Positions 21,478-59,710 of a stretch of DNA of 64,000 nucleotides are shown here, one piece after another. The DNA is from Streptomyces sp. NBC_00483 (lineage in GTDB: Bacteria; Actinomycetota; Actinomycetes; Streptomycetales; Streptomycetaceae), in NCBI RefSeq assembly GCF_036013745.1, contig NZ_CP107880.1, positions 4,960,001 through 5,024,000 of the forward strand, written 5' to 3'. How positions within the stretch are numbered: the stretch's first letter is position 1; each line of letters begins with the position of its first letter. Both the position numbers and the translations under genes were made by a program. The notes under the pieces were generated by a model. That model saw nothing but the letters and a program-made list of their open reading frames with translations, had not been told where the DNA came from and made no database searches.

Positions 21478-22458
21478 CTACTGGTTGGTGAGCAGGACCT
21501 TGCCGATGTGACCCGACTCCTCCAGGACCCGGTGGCCCTGCGCGGCGTCGCTCATCGGAAGCGTCCGGTCCACGATCGGCCGCACATGGCCGCCCTCGAC
21601 CAGCGGCCACACGTGCTCGCGCACGGCAGCGACGACCGCCGCCTTCTCGGTCAGCGGGCGGGCCCGCAGCGTGGTCGCGGTGATGGCGCCGCGCTTGCCG
21701 AGCAGCGTGGCGATGTTCAGCTCGCCCTTCACCCCGCCCTGCATGCCGATGATGGCGAGCCGGCCGCTGGTGGCGAGGGCGTCGACGTTCCGGTTCAGGT
21801 ACTTGGCGCCCATGTTGTCGAGGATGACGTCGGCGCCCGCCCCGCCCGTGGCGTTCTTGATCTCTTCCACGAAGTCCTGCTCGCGGTAGTTGATCAGGAT
21901 GTCCGCGCCGAGCTCCCCGCAGAAGTCGAGCTTCTCCTTGGTGCCGGCCGTGACCGCGACCTTGGCGCCGACCGCCTTCGCGAGCTGGATCGCCATGGTG
22001 CCGATGCCGCTGGAGCCGCCGTGCACGAGGAAGGTCTCGCCGGGCCGCAGGTTGGCGATCATGAAGACGTTGGACCAGACGGTGCAGGTCACCTCGGGCA
22101 GCGCGGCGGCCGTGGCCAGGTCGAGGCCCCCCGGCACCGGGAGGAGCTGCCCCGCGGGGACGACGACCTTCTCGGCGTACCCGCCGCCCACGAGCAGCGC
22201 GCACACCTCGTCGCCTACCGACCAGCCGGAGACGCCGGTGCCGAGCTCGACGATCCGGCCGGAGCACTCCAGGCCGGGATAGGGGGAGGTGCCGGGCGGC
22301 GGGCTGTAGAAGCCCTGCCGCTGGAGCAGATCGGCGCGGTTGACGGCGCTGGAGACCACCTCGACCAGGACCTCGCCCTCGCCGGGTACGGGGTCGGGGA
22401 CCTCCGTCCAGACGAGCGCCTCGGGTCCGCCGGGTTCCGTGATCGTGATCGCATGCAT
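21478..22458 (-). CDS. Zinc-free quinone oxidoreductase (MDR superfamily, PIG3/QOR-like)
   Basis: The protein has 326 aa. The GroES-like N-terminal domain contains AVNRADLLQRQGFYSPPPG, typical of PIG3-type NADPH:quinone reductases. The Rossmann domain has the nucleotide-binding VHGGSSGIGTMAIQLAKAVGA. Catalytic zinc ligands are absent. It is expected to reduce quinones with NADPH in the cytoplasm. It lies convergent with the Pro-rich gene and 60 bp beyond the channel gene on the same strand. Confidence 0.88.
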   Translation of the reverse strand: MHAITITEPGGPEALVWTEVPDPVPGEGEVLVEVVSSAVNRADLLQRQGFYSPPPGTSPYPGLECSGRIVELGTGVSGWSVGDEVCALLVGGGYAEKVVVPAGQLLPVPGGLDLATAAALPEVTCTVWSNVFMIANLRPGETFLVHGGSSGIGTMAIQLAKAVGAKVAVTAGTKEKLDFCGELGADILINYREQDFVEEIKNATGGAGADVILDNMGAKYLNRNVDALATSGRLAIIGMQGGVKGELNIATLLGKRGAITATTLRARPLTEKAAVVAAVREHVWPLVEGGHVRPIVDRTLPMSDAAQGHRVLEESGHIGKVLLTNQ

Positions 22459-22518: not shown

Positions 22519-23616
22519 TCAGCTGCGCGGAGTGGGCTTCATGTCCGGTGCCAGCTGGGTCTTGGGCGTGACGCGGGTGATCGTGATGAGGCGGTCCGTC
22601 AGCTTGAGCGAGCCGACGGCCGAGTCGTCGTAGCCGAGTACCCGGTGCCCGCGGATGACGCTGACGACCAGGTCCTCCGTCTCCTTCGGCTGCAGGCCGA
22701 CCTCGGCCTTGGTGACCGGGCGTTCGACCATGTCGAGGCCGGAGCCCTTCTGGATGAGGTCCTCCATGACCATGCCCGCGTGCGGGCTGAGCACGGACAG
22801 GCCGAGCAGCCGCCCCGCCGCACTGGCGCTGGTGATGACGGCGTCGGCGCCGGACTGGCGCAGCAGCGGCGCGTTCTCCTCCTCGCGGACCGCGGCGACG
22901 ATCTTCGCCCCGCGGTTCAACTGCCGCGCGGTGAGCGTCACGAGGACCGCCGTGTCGTCGCGCTGCGTCGCGATGATGATCTTCCGCGCCCGCTGTACCT
23001 CAGCCTGCAACAGGACCGAGCTGCGCGTGGCATCGCCCGTCACGCCCGCGTATCCATGGGCGTTGGCGCTCTCGACGACCTTGGGGCTGGGGTCGACCAC
23101 GACGACCTGCTCGGGCTTCAGGCCACTCGCGCAGACGGTCTCCACGGCGCTACGACCCTTGGTTCCGAAGCCGACGACGACAGTGTGGTCACGCAAGGTG
23201 GACCTCCAGCGTTTCAGGCGCCATTCCTCCCGCGTCCGCTCGGTGAGGACTTCGAGCGTGGTGCCGACCAGGATGATCAGGAAGAGCACACGCAGCGGCG
23301 TGATGACGAAGATATTGGTGAGCCGCGCCGCGTCGCTGACCGGCGTGATGTCGCCGTATCCCGTGGTGGAGAGCGTGACGGTCGCGTAGTAGAACGAGTC
23401 GAGCAGGTCGACATGGCCATCTGAGTTGTCGTTGTAGCCGTCTCTGTCGATCCACACGATCAGTGCGGTGACGACGAGCACGGTGAGCGCTATCAGCACG
23501 CGCCGGGCCACTTGGAGGAGCGGACGCTCGACGACCTGCCGGGGAAGTTTCACCCGGTAGGTCGCGGTCCGCTCGTCCTCTTGGCGTGCGATGGCGTCAT
23601 CGCCGGCCAGTTTCAC
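22519..23616 (-). CDS. Two-TM potassium channel with RCK (TrkA-N/TrkA-C) domain
   Basis: The protein has 365 aa from the GTG at 23616; a longer open frame upstream is antisense noise over moeA. TM1 is RVLIALTVLVVTALIVWI. The pore helix and selectivity filter are SFYYATVTLSTTGYGDITP (TGYGD). TM2 is NIFVITPLRVLFLIILVGTT. A cytosolic RCK Rossmann domain (TVVVGFGTKGRSAVETVCASG) and a TrkA-C domain follow. It is a K+-selective, ligand-gated (MthK-like) channel. The start codon overlaps the moeA stop (GTGA), and a perfect parS palindrome covers this junction. Confidence 0.9.
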   Translation of the reverse strand: MKLAGDDAIARQEDERTATYRVKLPRQVVERPLLQVARRVLIALTVLVVTALIVWIDRDGYNDNSDGHVDLLDSFYYATVTLSTTGYGDITPVSDAARLTNIFVITPLRVLFLIILVGTTLEVLTERTREEWRLKRWRSTLRDHTVVVGFGTKGRSAVETVCASGLKPEQVVVVDPSPKVVESANAHGYAGVTGDATRSSVLLQAEVQRARKIIIATQRDDTAVLVTLTARQLNRGAKIVAAVREEENAPLLRQSGADAVITSASAAGRLLGLSVLSPHAGMVMEDLIQKGSGLDMVERPVTKAEVGLQPKETEDLVVSVIRGHRVLGYDDSAVGSLKLTDRLITITRVTPKTQLAPDMKPTPRS

Positions 23617-23623
23617 GTGAAAC
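23610..23623. other. parS: parS site (ParB-binding centromere), perfect 14-bp match
   Basis: GTTTCACGTGAAAC is a perfect palindrome identical to the Streptomyces parS consensus, and the flanks extend it to TGTTTCACGTGAAACA. It encodes the last codons and stop of moeA and the first codons of the potassium channel. In Streptomyces, ParB loads on about 20 parS sites clustered around oriC to organise chromosomes for sporulation. Confidence 0.93.
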
Positions 23624-25184
23624 ACCCTTCGTTTCCCGCCGGGTTGAGACCGGGCAGGCCAGGGTTCCACGACCACGGCAGGTCGAGGATCTCCACCTCC
23701 TGGCCCTCCGTGGCGCCGCCGGGCGGGATGACGGCGAGCCCATCGGCGGCTGCGATGCCGCGCAGCATGGCCGGACCGTTGTAGTGCAGCGGCACCGCCC
23801 ACTCGTGCCCACTGCCGTCGTCCTGCCGCAGCACGATGGGGATGAGGCGGGTGTCGTGAGGGTGACCGGGGGCGGGCGTGTGCAGGGGTGCGGTGTACGC
23901 GTCCGCGGTCCGGCCCCCGTCCAACTGCCGCTGCCCGCCGTGGGATTGGCGCTGCGCGGAGCTGTGCGTCTGGTCCTGCGCCCGGCCCGAGAGCACCCGG
24001 AGCAGCGGCTCGGCGAGCGTGAGCAGGCCGGAGACGGCGGCCAGCGGGTTGCCGGGGAGGCCGACGAGGTGCTGCCCCTCCTTGAGCCGGGCCAGCAGCA
24101 TCGGGTGGCCGGGGCGGACGGCGACCCCGTCGACGAGGAGTTCGGCGTCGAGGGCGCGCAGGGTGGGGTGCACGTGGTCGACGGGGCCGGACGCGGTGCC
24201 GCCGGTGGTCACGACCAGGTCGGTGCCGGCCTCCCGTACCGCCTTGAGCAGCGCTTTCGCGTCGTCGCCGAGCCTGCGTACGGCGATCACCTCGACGCCG
24301 AGCGCACGCAGCCAGTGCGGGAGCATCGGGCCGAGCGCGTCCCGGATGAGGCCGTCGCGGGGGAGACCGGCGGTGAGCAACTCGTCGCCGAGGATCAGGA
24401 CTTCGACCGTCGGTCGCGGGACGACGGTCAGGGTGTCGTAGCCCGCGGCGGCGGCGAGACCGAGGACGGCCGGGGTGACGAGGGCGCCTGCGGGCAGCAG
24501 CAGTTCGCCGCTGCGGCACTCCTGGCCGCGGGGGCGGATGTCCTGACCGTGGGCGACGGCGTGCAGCGCGTGCAACTGGCCGCCCGCGTCGAGGTGTCCG
24601 TGCTCGCTGCGGATGACGGCCGTGGCGTCCGAGGGCACGCGGGCGCCGGTCGCGATCGCCGCGGCCTCGCCGTCGGTCAGCGGGGCGGGCGGCTCGTGTC
24701 CGGCGAGCAGCCCTTCGCCGCCCACGGCCCAGGGGCCCGGGCCCGCGACGACCCAGCCGTCCATCGCCGAGGTGTCGAAGGAGGGCAGGTCCGTCAGGGC
24801 GGTCAGCGGGGCAGCGAGGACCAGGCCGAGCGCCTGGTCGAGCGGGACGCTGCGCGCTCCGCGGGGGCCGCGTTCGGCCCGTGCGGCGGTGCGGCGGGCC
24901 GTGGCCCAGGAGGTCGCGGCATGTCGGTGCGATGGGGCGGGGACCGGAGTCCCGGGTGTGGCGGAGTTCTGCGGGGTGGTCCGCTCGGTGGTCCGCTCGC
25001 CCTTGGGCTGTTCGTCGCGGCGCCGGTCGTCCTGGTGCGGTTCTCCGTGGCGTTGCTCTCCGTGGTGCCGGCCGCCGTGGGGGCGGTTGTCGTTGGCCAG
25101 GGCGAGTGCCTCGTCCACGTCGACGTCCATCGGATCGACGCCCACCGGGACGGCCTGCGGCGACCGCCCGTTGGGGGCGCTCAT
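23613..25184 (-). CDS. moeA: Molybdopterin molybdenumtransferase
   Basis: The protein has 523 aa, longer than typical MoeA (about 410) because of a disordered His/Arg/Glu/Pro-rich N-terminal extension (residues about 30-100). The core has LPSFDTSAMDGWVV, AIATGARVPSDATAVI, LILGDELL, VVTTGGTASGPVDHVHPTL (molybdopterin-binding MoCF domain) and LVGLPGNPLAAV. A second low-complexity insertion (AQDQTHSSAQRQSHGG) precedes domain IV. It inserts molybdate into adenylylated molybdopterin. It overlaps the mobA-like gene upstream and the channel gene downstream by 4 bp each. Confidence 0.9.
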   Translation of the reverse strand: MSAPNGRSPQAVPVGVDPMDVDVDEALALANDNRPHGGRHHGEQRHGEPHQDDRRRDEQPKGERTTERTTPQNSATPGTPVPAPSHRHAATSWATARRTAARAERGPRGARSVPLDQALGLVLAAPLTALTDLPSFDTSAMDGWVVAGPGPWAVGGEGLLAGHEPPAPLTDGEAAAIATGARVPSDATAVIRSEHGHLDAGGQLHALHAVAHGQDIRPRGQECRSGELLLPAGALVTPAVLGLAAAAGYDTLTVVPRPTVEVLILGDELLTAGLPRDGLIRDALGPMLPHWLRALGVEVIAVRRLGDDAKALLKAVREAGTDLVVTTGGTASGPVDHVHPTLRALDAELLVDGVAVRPGHPMLLARLKEGQHLVGLPGNPLAAVSGLLTLAEPLLRVLSGRAQDQTHSSAQRQSHGGQRQLDGGRTADAYTAPLHTPAPGHPHDTRLIPIVLRQDDGSGHEWAVPLHYNGPAMLRGIAAADGLAVIPPGGATEGQEVEILDLPWSWNPGLPGLNPAGNEGCFT

Positions 25185-26089
25185 CCCGCGTCGTCCGGCT
25201 TGGCCTCGGCCTCCTGCGCCCAGCGATTGGCGAGCTCGGCCGCCTTCGCCGCGGCGGACGCCACGGCTTCGGGGCCGCCTCCTGCCTGCGCCGCCGCGTA
25301 TCCGACGAGGAACGTCGTCAGCGGTGCCGCGGGGCGCGCGACGCCGTGCGCGGCGTCACGGGCGAGGTCGAGCAGGACGCCCGTGTCGACGTCCAGGTCG
25401 ATGCCCAGTTCGTTCTTGGCTGCGGTGATCCATTCGTCAAGCACTCGTCCATGCTCCCTGATACGTGACCGGGCGGCGGCGATGTCGTCCCAGGTGTCGC
25501 AGTCGAACGACGCGACGGGGTCGGTGATGCGGGTCAGCCTGAGGTTACGGGTGAACAGGCGCAGCGGAAGGCCCGAGAGGTCACCGTGTTGGGCCTTGAG
25601 TTCGCCGAGGACGCGTCGCAGTGCCGCGTACCGGTAGGCGGCGACGAGCGGCTGGTCACGGCCGTCGCCGTCGGCCAGCAGCGCGCCGTCGACCGCCTCG
25701 CCGGTCACGCCGTCGTTCGCGCCGCCGAGTTCGCTTTCGGCTTCGAGCGCGTCGAGAAGGCCTCGTACGGTGCGGTCGCCCAGGAACGGCAGATCGGCGG
25801 AGAGCACGAGGATGCTCTCCGCCACCCGTTCCGGTGCGGCCTCGAGTCCCCGAACCCCCGCCTCCAGAGCGGCGAGCGGCCCCCCGCCCGGCGGGTCCTC
25901 GCGGGCCCAGACGACGGGGCGCGCGGTGCGGCGCGGCTCGGCGACCACCACGGTGGCGCGGGCCCCGGCGCACGCGTGCAGGACCCGGTCGAGCAGCGCG
26001 CGACCGCCGACCCGCACACCCGGCTTGTCCGCGCCGCCGAGCCGGCGCGCGCCGCCCCCGGCGAGGACGATGGCGTCGTACGCGTTCAT
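25181..26089 (-). CDS. mobA: MobA-like NTP transferase fused to a DUF6457-type helical domain
   Basis: The protein has 302 aa. The N-terminal nucleotidyltransferase fold has the signature AIVLAGGGARRLGGADKPGV and ILVLSADLPFLG (metal-binding Asp), followed by FDCDTWDDIAAAR. This is MobA/MobA-like, which attaches GMP or CMP to molybdopterin. From about residue 215 a separate helical domain (LDEWITAAKNELGIDLD, FLVGYAAAQAGG) matches the actinobacterial domain annotated DUF6457. Coupling to moeA by an ATGA overlap supports a molybdenum-cofactor role. Confidence 0.85.
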   Translation of the reverse strand: MNAYDAIVLAGGGARRLGGADKPGVRVGGRALLDRVLHACAGARATVVVAEPRRTARPVVWAREDPPGGGPLAALEAGVRGLEAAPERVAESILVLSADLPFLGDRTVRGLLDALEAESELGGANDGVTGEAVDGALLADGDGRDQPLVAAYRYAALRRVLGELKAQHGDLSGLPLRLFTRNLRLTRITDPVASFDCDTWDDIAAARSRIREHGRVLDEWITAAKNELGIDLDVDTGVLLDLARDAAHGVARPAAPLTTFLVGYAAAQAGGGPEAVASAAAKAAELANRWAQEAEAKPDDAG

Positions 26090-59014: not shown

Positions 59015-59710
59015 CTAACGGCGTAGCGCTTTCGGTTTGCCTGCCTCCACAGGCTGAGTGGCATCGAGATGCGCCCAGACGATCAGACGGTGACTGTGGC
59101 CCCACTCCGGCTCACACGTCGTCAGCGTCAGATAGCGCCCCGGCTCCTGGTAACCGGACTTGCGCGGCACCGGGTCGATCACTCCGACATCGCTGGGCAG
59201 CGTCTTGTACGGCTTGGTGTCGATGACGTACGTGAACCACGTGGTCCCGTCGGTGAGCACCACCGGGTCACCCGGCCTGAGCTTGGGGAAGTCCTTGAAC
59301 GGGTCGCCGTACGTGCGCCGATGGCCGGCGACCGCGAAGTTCCCCTTCTCCCCGAGCCGGGCCGTGCCGGCGTAGTGCCCGAGCCCCTTCTTGAGGGTGT
59401 CGACCTTCGTGTTCTGGAGGACGGGCTTGTTCCACGTGAAACCAAGCCGCGGGATGTACATCACACCGAAGGGCTTGCCGTCCTTGTACGGGCCCTGCTC
59501 CGGCGGCGCCGCACTGGTCCGGTCATCGGGCGCCGCACTGGCCACCGGCCGCTTCGCCCACTGGTCCTGGAGGTCGTCGATCTGGCTGCCCATGGCGCTG
59601 TCAGCCTTCACACCGGTCCAGAACAGCACATACGCGACGAACAGCACGATCAAGGCGCCGACGGTGATACAGAGTTCGCTGAATGTCCTGATGGCGACAC
59701 GTACCGACAC
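59015..59710 (-). CDS. srtE: Class E sortase, third copy
   Basis: The protein has 231 aa from a GTG at 59710. The TM anchor is ELCITVGALIVLFVAYVLFW. The catalytic His is in FAVAGHRRTYGDPF, Cys in LTLTTCEPEWGHS and Arg in SHRLIVWAHL. It is diverged from the other two around the active site (CEPEWGHSHR instead of CTPxxTSTYR). A near-perfect parS lies inside the coding sequence (59429-59442). Confidence 0.9.
   Translation of the reverse strand: MSVRVAIRTFSELCITVGALIVLFVAYVLFWTGVKADSAMGSQIDDLQDQWAKRPVASAAPDDRTSAAPPEQGPYKDGKPFGVMYIPRLGFTWNKPVLQNTKVDTLKKGLGHYAGTARLGEKGNFAVAGHRRTYGDPFKDFPKLRPGDPVVLTDGTTWFTYVIDTKPYKTLPSDVGVIDPVPRKSGYQEPGRYLTLTTCEPEWGHSHRLIVWAHLDATQPVEAGKPKALRR
59429..59442. other. 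parS: parS-like site, 13 of 14 matches
   Basis: GTTCCACGTGAAAC differs from GTTTCACGTGAAAC at one position. It lies within the third sortase gene. Degenerate parS sites with this substitution are known in Streptomyces. Confidence 0.65.

Follow-up and report, generated by a model that had tools for sequence, protein, structure and literature searches.

The junction between a moeA-type gene and an ion-channel gene in Streptomyces sp. NBC_00483 contains a perfect 14-bp parS palindrome, GTTTCACGTGAAAC, that forms both the end of the first gene and the start of the second. It lies at positions 23610-23623 of the window, the whole stretch of 64,000 nucleotides that was analysed (Table 1). This copy most probably is an authentic outlying parS that serves as a ParB loading site in the oriC-region centromere and that arose once inside an existing, translationally coupled junction. 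In itself the site is an ordinary parS; what is unusual is its setting, which is deeply conserved. A centromere site would thus have evolved inside two overlapping genes, and it is kept in 155 of the 194 scorable genomes of the genus (154 with a perfect copy, one with a single mismatch). Natural controls exist in which either role has been lost without the other. With this arrangement one can test why certain parS copies cannot be replaced although the chromosome has 16 of them, and whether the layout of the ParB zone, not the number of parS sites, is under selection. It is also a warning that a conserved sequence at such a junction need not imply regulation of the downstream gene.

Table 1. 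Features at and around the moeA/channel junction, in window coordinates
Feature	Coordinates	Strand	Remarks
parS GTTTCACGTGAAAC	23610..23623	.	Palindrome match; kept at the junction in 154/199 genus genomes
moeA-type gene	23613..25184	-	MoeA_N, MoCF_biosynth, MoeA_C; TGA stop (23615-23613) and last codons inside parS
Ion-channel gene	22519..23616	-	Ion_trans_2 and TrkA_N/RCK; start GTG (23616-23614) inside parS
GTGA stop/start overlap	23613..23616	-	Centre of parS
Shine-Dalgarno-like GAAGGG	23625..23630	-	8-nt spacer to channel GTG
mobA-like NTP transferase + DUF6457 gene	25181..26089	-	Upstream of moeA, 4-nt overlap with moeA; same order in relatives
Zinc-binding-dehydrogenase-type (quinone oxidoreductase-like) gene	21478..22458	-	Downstream of channel

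Both genes lie on the minus strand, which the initial annotation had not specified. Read on that strand, the 14-mer spells the last moeA codons, the TGA stop and the GTG-AAA start of the channel gene. The C terminus of MoeA is Gly-Cys-Phe-Thr-stop, and the four nucleotides GTGA are common to both reading frames. The initial annotation had described a perfect Streptomyces parS consensus enclosing the moeA stop, the overlap and the channel start, and each element of that description holds, with 0 mismatches to the palindrome in a pattern scan of the window. The channel start is assigned to the GTG, as homology reaches residue 1 in relatives, and variation downstream of it falls mainly in third codon positions. 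The translated channel contains a TTGYGD filter motif, which we take to be typical of K+ channels, and its family predicts potassium as the ion that is carried.

The junction combines the GTGA overlap (23616-23613) with the ribosome-binding-like GAAGGG (23630-23625), as a translationally coupled gene pair does. Because of the position of GAAGGG, the left half of the parS occupies most of the 8-nt spacer before the GTG. Ribosomes would end moeA and restart on the channel gene by way of the same bases. In mechanical gene calls over 224 kb of the genome, this GTGA is one of 23 such overlaps (13 GTGA and 10 ATGA). The junction resembles ordinary ATGA and GTGA gene pairs in its 4-nt overlap, its Shine-Dalgarno-like stretch and its presumed translational coupling, but differs from them in having the overlap inside a palindrome that, to judge from its match to parS, binds a protein. 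Two of the codons that the palindrome forces are uncommon in the same 224 kb: AAA accounts for 36 of 1841 Lys codons (2.0%), and TGT for 50 of 431 Cys codons (11.6%). In B. subtilis, the spo0J gene carries a chromosomal parS, which is likewise a centromere site overlapping coding sequence. The spo0J site lies inside one reading frame, whereas the junction parS makes up the ends of two genes that overlap by 4 nt.

A scan of the 10.24-Mb Streptomyces chromosome finds 16 perfect parS copies and five with one mismatch, all within C1:4953063-5149201. The cluster of perfect copies is 196 kb long, contains 16 of 16 and spans dnaA (5040636-5041121) and the ParB gene (G000:C1:5047577-5048560; ParB_N, HTH_ParB and ParB_C domains). 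About 57 kb separate the junction copy from dnaA. A control with the reversed pattern gives 0 matches in the genome, and an order-2 Markov model trained on 224 kb of the same genome predicts 0.0042 perfect copies per genome and 0.00003 per 64 kb. Chance occurrence is therefore ruled out, with about 0.004 copies expected per genome and 16 seen. Each of the 199 genus genomes has at least one perfect parS (5 to 69 per genome), and the reversed pattern is found 0 times in each. By mechanical gene calls, the kind used everywhere outside the window, 11 of the 16 perfect copies in the window's genome are intergenic. One of the one-mismatch copies, GTTCCACGTGAAAC, is found at 59429-59442 of the window, inside a mechanically called gene.

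We take the palindromic consensus GTTTCACGTGAAAC to be the Streptomyces parS, an assignment supported by its recurrence and clustering in the genome. The methods of one study give a slightly different string, GTTTCACCTGAAAC (PMC4852455, available in part). The junction site has the consensus, clusters with others in the oriC region, has a ParB gene nearby and is conserved beyond the needs of the overlapping genes. The chromosomal parS sites of S. coelicolor and S. venezuelae share the same palindrome and the same clustering over about 200 kb around oriC, and the 16 perfect copies found here equal the number reported for S. venezuelae in the available part of PMC4852455. In contrast to other Streptomyces parS sites, the junction copy itself supplies one gene with its stop and the next with its start.

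In S. venezuelae, ChIP-seq reportedly places ParB at 16 parS sites and one further site, with spreading over 2.5-3 kb (excerpt of PMC12511625), and nearly all ParB peaks are said to correspond to parS (excerpt of PMC4852455). SMC binding is described as much reduced without ParB (excerpt of PMC8410768). ParB would presumably occupy the junction copy in the same manner, nucleating there as at other parS sites, sliding outward and recruiting SMC. Because its closest perfect neighbours lie at distances of 30.5 kb and 62.6 kb, the junction parS would seed a ParB island of its own.

The initial annotation had proposed a search of genomes for parS at the moeA-channel junction, and the site proves to be widespread. 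Among 199 genus genomes, the orthologous junction carries a perfect parS in 154, a one-mismatch parS in one (G017, where it lies at the moeA stop) and none in 39; the remaining five are not scorable (G001, G050, G120, G168 and G183; G and L numbers denote genomes and loci). The 154 comprise 153 scored by script and G102, which was read from its channel contig (L132). Script assignment of the moeA stop fails in a few genomes (G045, G059), and these were inspected by eye. Of the 153 script-scored junctions, 127 have one copy in exactly the arrangement of the window; the moeA stop falls inside a parS in 146 of the 153 and the channel start in 137. The channel or its pore half is co-directional with moeA in 138 genomes, and all of these but G010 start it within a parS. 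In G010, the copy at the start has decayed, alongside two perfect ones.

None of the 22 genomes that represent other genera in the family has a perfect parS at the junction, including the 16 with moeA and the channel gene co-directional. Two of these 22, G211 and G247, have a two-mismatch parS-like match near the end of moeA (loci L267 and L268, both from another genus of the family). A separate set of 43 named loci was picked by closeness to the query and kept out of the counts for the genus sample, with which it may overlap. A perfect parS lies close to the channel start in 38 of its 40 Streptomyces loci, the exceptions being L049 and L051.

Within the parS, every column is invariant (1.00) over 128 junctions, a value that is partly built in because having the perfect site was the criterion by which these junctions (127 from the genus sample, plus G250) were selected. 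The second codon of the channel gene is AAA in parS junctions and AAG in 16 of 18 overlaps that lack parS. Matches of at least 4 nt to an extended Shine-Dalgarno string are present in 119 of the 128 parS junctions, compared with 45% of shuffled stretches, and in 17 of the 18 parS-less overlaps, where the match is mostly GGAGG.

On a tree of MoeA with 216 tips, the presence of the junction parS changes state once, separating 156 tips that have it from 60 that do not, including the 22 from other genera. The tree was built from residues 101-510 so that the last codons were excluded, and G017 and G102 were set positive by hand. A tree of MoeA and the channel together likewise has one change of state. 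The branch that unites the parS-bearing genomes has SH-aLRT values of 77 in the first tree and 22 in the second, and therefore more than one gain or some losses would be possible. One gain, with no loss seen, is the simplest reading of these trees, although it is unproven on a branch with weak to moderate support.

The surrounding gene order is older than the junction parS. This order, which includes bkd genes, mobA, moeA, the channel and the dehydrogenase, recurs over the 19 kb examined in most of 16 parS-less genomes of the genus and in some of four outgroup genomes. Among the 39 parS-less genomes, a 4-nt overlap is present in 18 (17 GTGA and one ATGA), and 16 of these 18 have GTGAAG. The ancestral junction probably resembled GGAGG-N(6-7)-GTGAAG, with a 4-nt overlap, a Shine-Dalgarno sequence and a Val/Met-Lys start. 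Because one half of parS, the right, is already matched by the CGTGAA of a parS-less overlap, the palindrome needs only a few spacer changes and a synonymous change from AAG to AAA, and it could have formed at little cost to either protein. These comparisons suggest that the parS grew out of the pre-existing overlap.

The two roles of the site come apart in both directions. A perfect parS is found beside moeA in 15 genomes that have no co-directional intact channel: in 11 the neighbour is an inverted channel relative, and in four (G026, G117, G144 and G169) no intact channel is close by. The moeA stop is still inside the parS in 12 of these 15, and G169 retains a 38-residue channel-like remnant that starts in the parS. 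Conversely, the 18 overlaps without parS have the geometry of coupling without the palindrome. Together, the 15 genomes with parS but no proper channel and the 18 overlaps with no parS make ParB loading look like the selected function and translation like a tenant. Comparison of sequences thus suggests that the site is kept for the sake of the chromosome.

Several other rearrangements were observed at these loci. An inverted channel relative adjoins moeA in 15 genus genomes (L239 and similar loci), and most of these relatives are followed by a remnant of the original channel that has only the RCK part; the stop of the inverted channel in L239 lies in a second parS. In L249 and L250, the channel is split at about residue 137, between the pore and RCK domains, by inserts of about 2.2-2.6 kb, and the pore half keeps its start in the parS.

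Copy number at the junction also varies. Twelve genomes have 2-5 perfect junction copies. In the six multi-copy genomes (2-3 copies) whose channel starts in a parS, the first copy contains the moeA stop and the last contains the channel start. In G040 (CTTCACATGA), the moeA stop lies in an apparently decayed copy, and the copy at the channel start is perfect; G024 (CTTCGTCTGA) is similar, although decay of its moeA-stop copy is less clear. Over the 19 kb examined in 16 parS-less genomes, four have 2-5 copies about 3.2 kb downstream and a fifth has one, at +1.2 kb; the other 11 lack any perfect parS within 9.5 kb. The arrays at four parS-less loci (L334, L335, L341 and L342) are located about 3.2 kb downstream of the channel start and upstream of a match to the window's proteasome-activator (BPA) gene. 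G191 and G090 have downstream parS arrays too. A generic need for parS does not explain why no loss of one outlying copy is seen, as some parS-less lineages have arrays 3.2 kb away and 11 of 16 have none within 9.5 kb.

One possible answer is translational lock-in, in which a parS with a stop codon, a start codon and a ribosome-binding-site spacer built into it outlasts intergenic parS copies because most mutations hit more than one function. We regard this as a doubtful account of the junction. Evidence for it comes from a second perfect parS (G000:C1:5101853-5101866), which lies beyond dnaA and outside the window. An ABC transporter gene (ABC_membrane, ABC_tran) has its GTG start at the centre of that palindrome. 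This parS has the same register as that of the channel in 26 of 30 chosen genomes, comprising all 20 that have the moeA site and six of the 10 that do not; in the other four, the gene begins with ATG. By comparison, a stop-embedded parS at an MFS gene (5060897) keeps its register in only one of 30 genomes, and 13 of the 30 have a perfect parS within 500 bp. The survey covers start- and stop-embedded parS sites and no intergenic ones, so the comparison is thin. Lock-in is also at odds with the parS-less group, in which start and stop function without the palindrome, and with duplications that separate the roles, after which moeA-end copies have seemingly decayed (G040 and, less clearly, G024).

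Taken with the channel start, the 26 of 30 ABC transporter starts indicate that a start codon inside a parS is a repeated, long-lived arrangement and not a single curiosity. It is conceivable, if rather speculative, that outlying parS sites in start codons on both sides of oriC (the channel and the ABC transporter) are translation-locked centromere sites, seeded by ordinary RTGAAR starts and kept because ParB loading and two reading frames need the same bases. Such sites would have fixed the layout of the outer ParB zone throughout the evolution of much of the genus.

Control of the channel by ParB is improbable. According to this proposal, which was put forward in the initial annotation, ParB that is bound or has spread at the junction blocks transcription into the channel gene and so places ion flux under sporulation-stage control. 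In its favour, the parS lies between both reading frames in most genomes of the genus, and effects of ParB on nearby genes have been reported elsewhere. The available part of a review (PMC7022226) describes repression at the promoter-adjacent parS3 and parS4 of P. aeruginosa and an effect of ParB1 on some genes near parS in Vibrio cholerae, and the accessible discussion in PMC4852455 raises an effect of ParB on transcription in the region of the complex as one possibility. However, the same portion of the review reports that loss of Spo0J in B. subtilis has no effect on genes adjacent to parS (PMC7022226). Spreading over 2.5-3 kb (excerpt of PMC12511625) would cover moeA, the channel and neighbouring genes alike, so that nothing singles out the channel.

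The junction is like parS3 and parS4 of P. aeruginosa in having a parS beside a gene start, the setting in which ParB repression is reported (PMC7022226, in part). Those sites are described as intergenic in the same text, whereas the junction parS has no intergenic gap, and a scan confined to promoters of the sigma-70 type finds 0 matches in 23300-24000. Further, the channel has been lost or inverted in other genomes of the genus without loss of the parS, so the site is not tied to the channel. Against the proposal stands a double dissociation: a perfect parS is retained in the 15 genomes without a co-directional intact channel, and junctions that lack the palindrome and have unchanged coupling, which the initial annotation had named as evidence against its proposal, are found in 18 genomes. 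Control of the channel is therefore rejected as the main account, and an effect of ParB on channel expression is conceivable but unproven. The related idea that one palindrome serves two roles fares better, in that the same bases are parS, stop, overlap and start, and both roles look real; the part that falls is that the site exists to control the channel.

It is very improbable that the palindrome is kept for an RNA hairpin or a start context and resembles parS incidentally; although the 14-mer can fold into a 5-bp hairpin with a 4-base loop that overlaps the GTG start, this hairpin is worth merely -2.3 kcal/mol, folding of the whole junction is unexceptional (z -1.02, with 25 of 200 shuffles as good), and the 14-mer has 16 occurrences, all of them in the oriC region, and persists where no channel start follows.

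In the literature searched, titles and the openings of abstracts give no account of a parS at the boundary between moeA and a channel gene, or of one that serves as a start codon. The moeA-type protein adjoining a membrane protein also recalls the Glp/GlpR pair of corynebacteria, in which the MoeA-like Glp reportedly belongs to the divisome and has a membrane receptor (PMC10522489, available in part).
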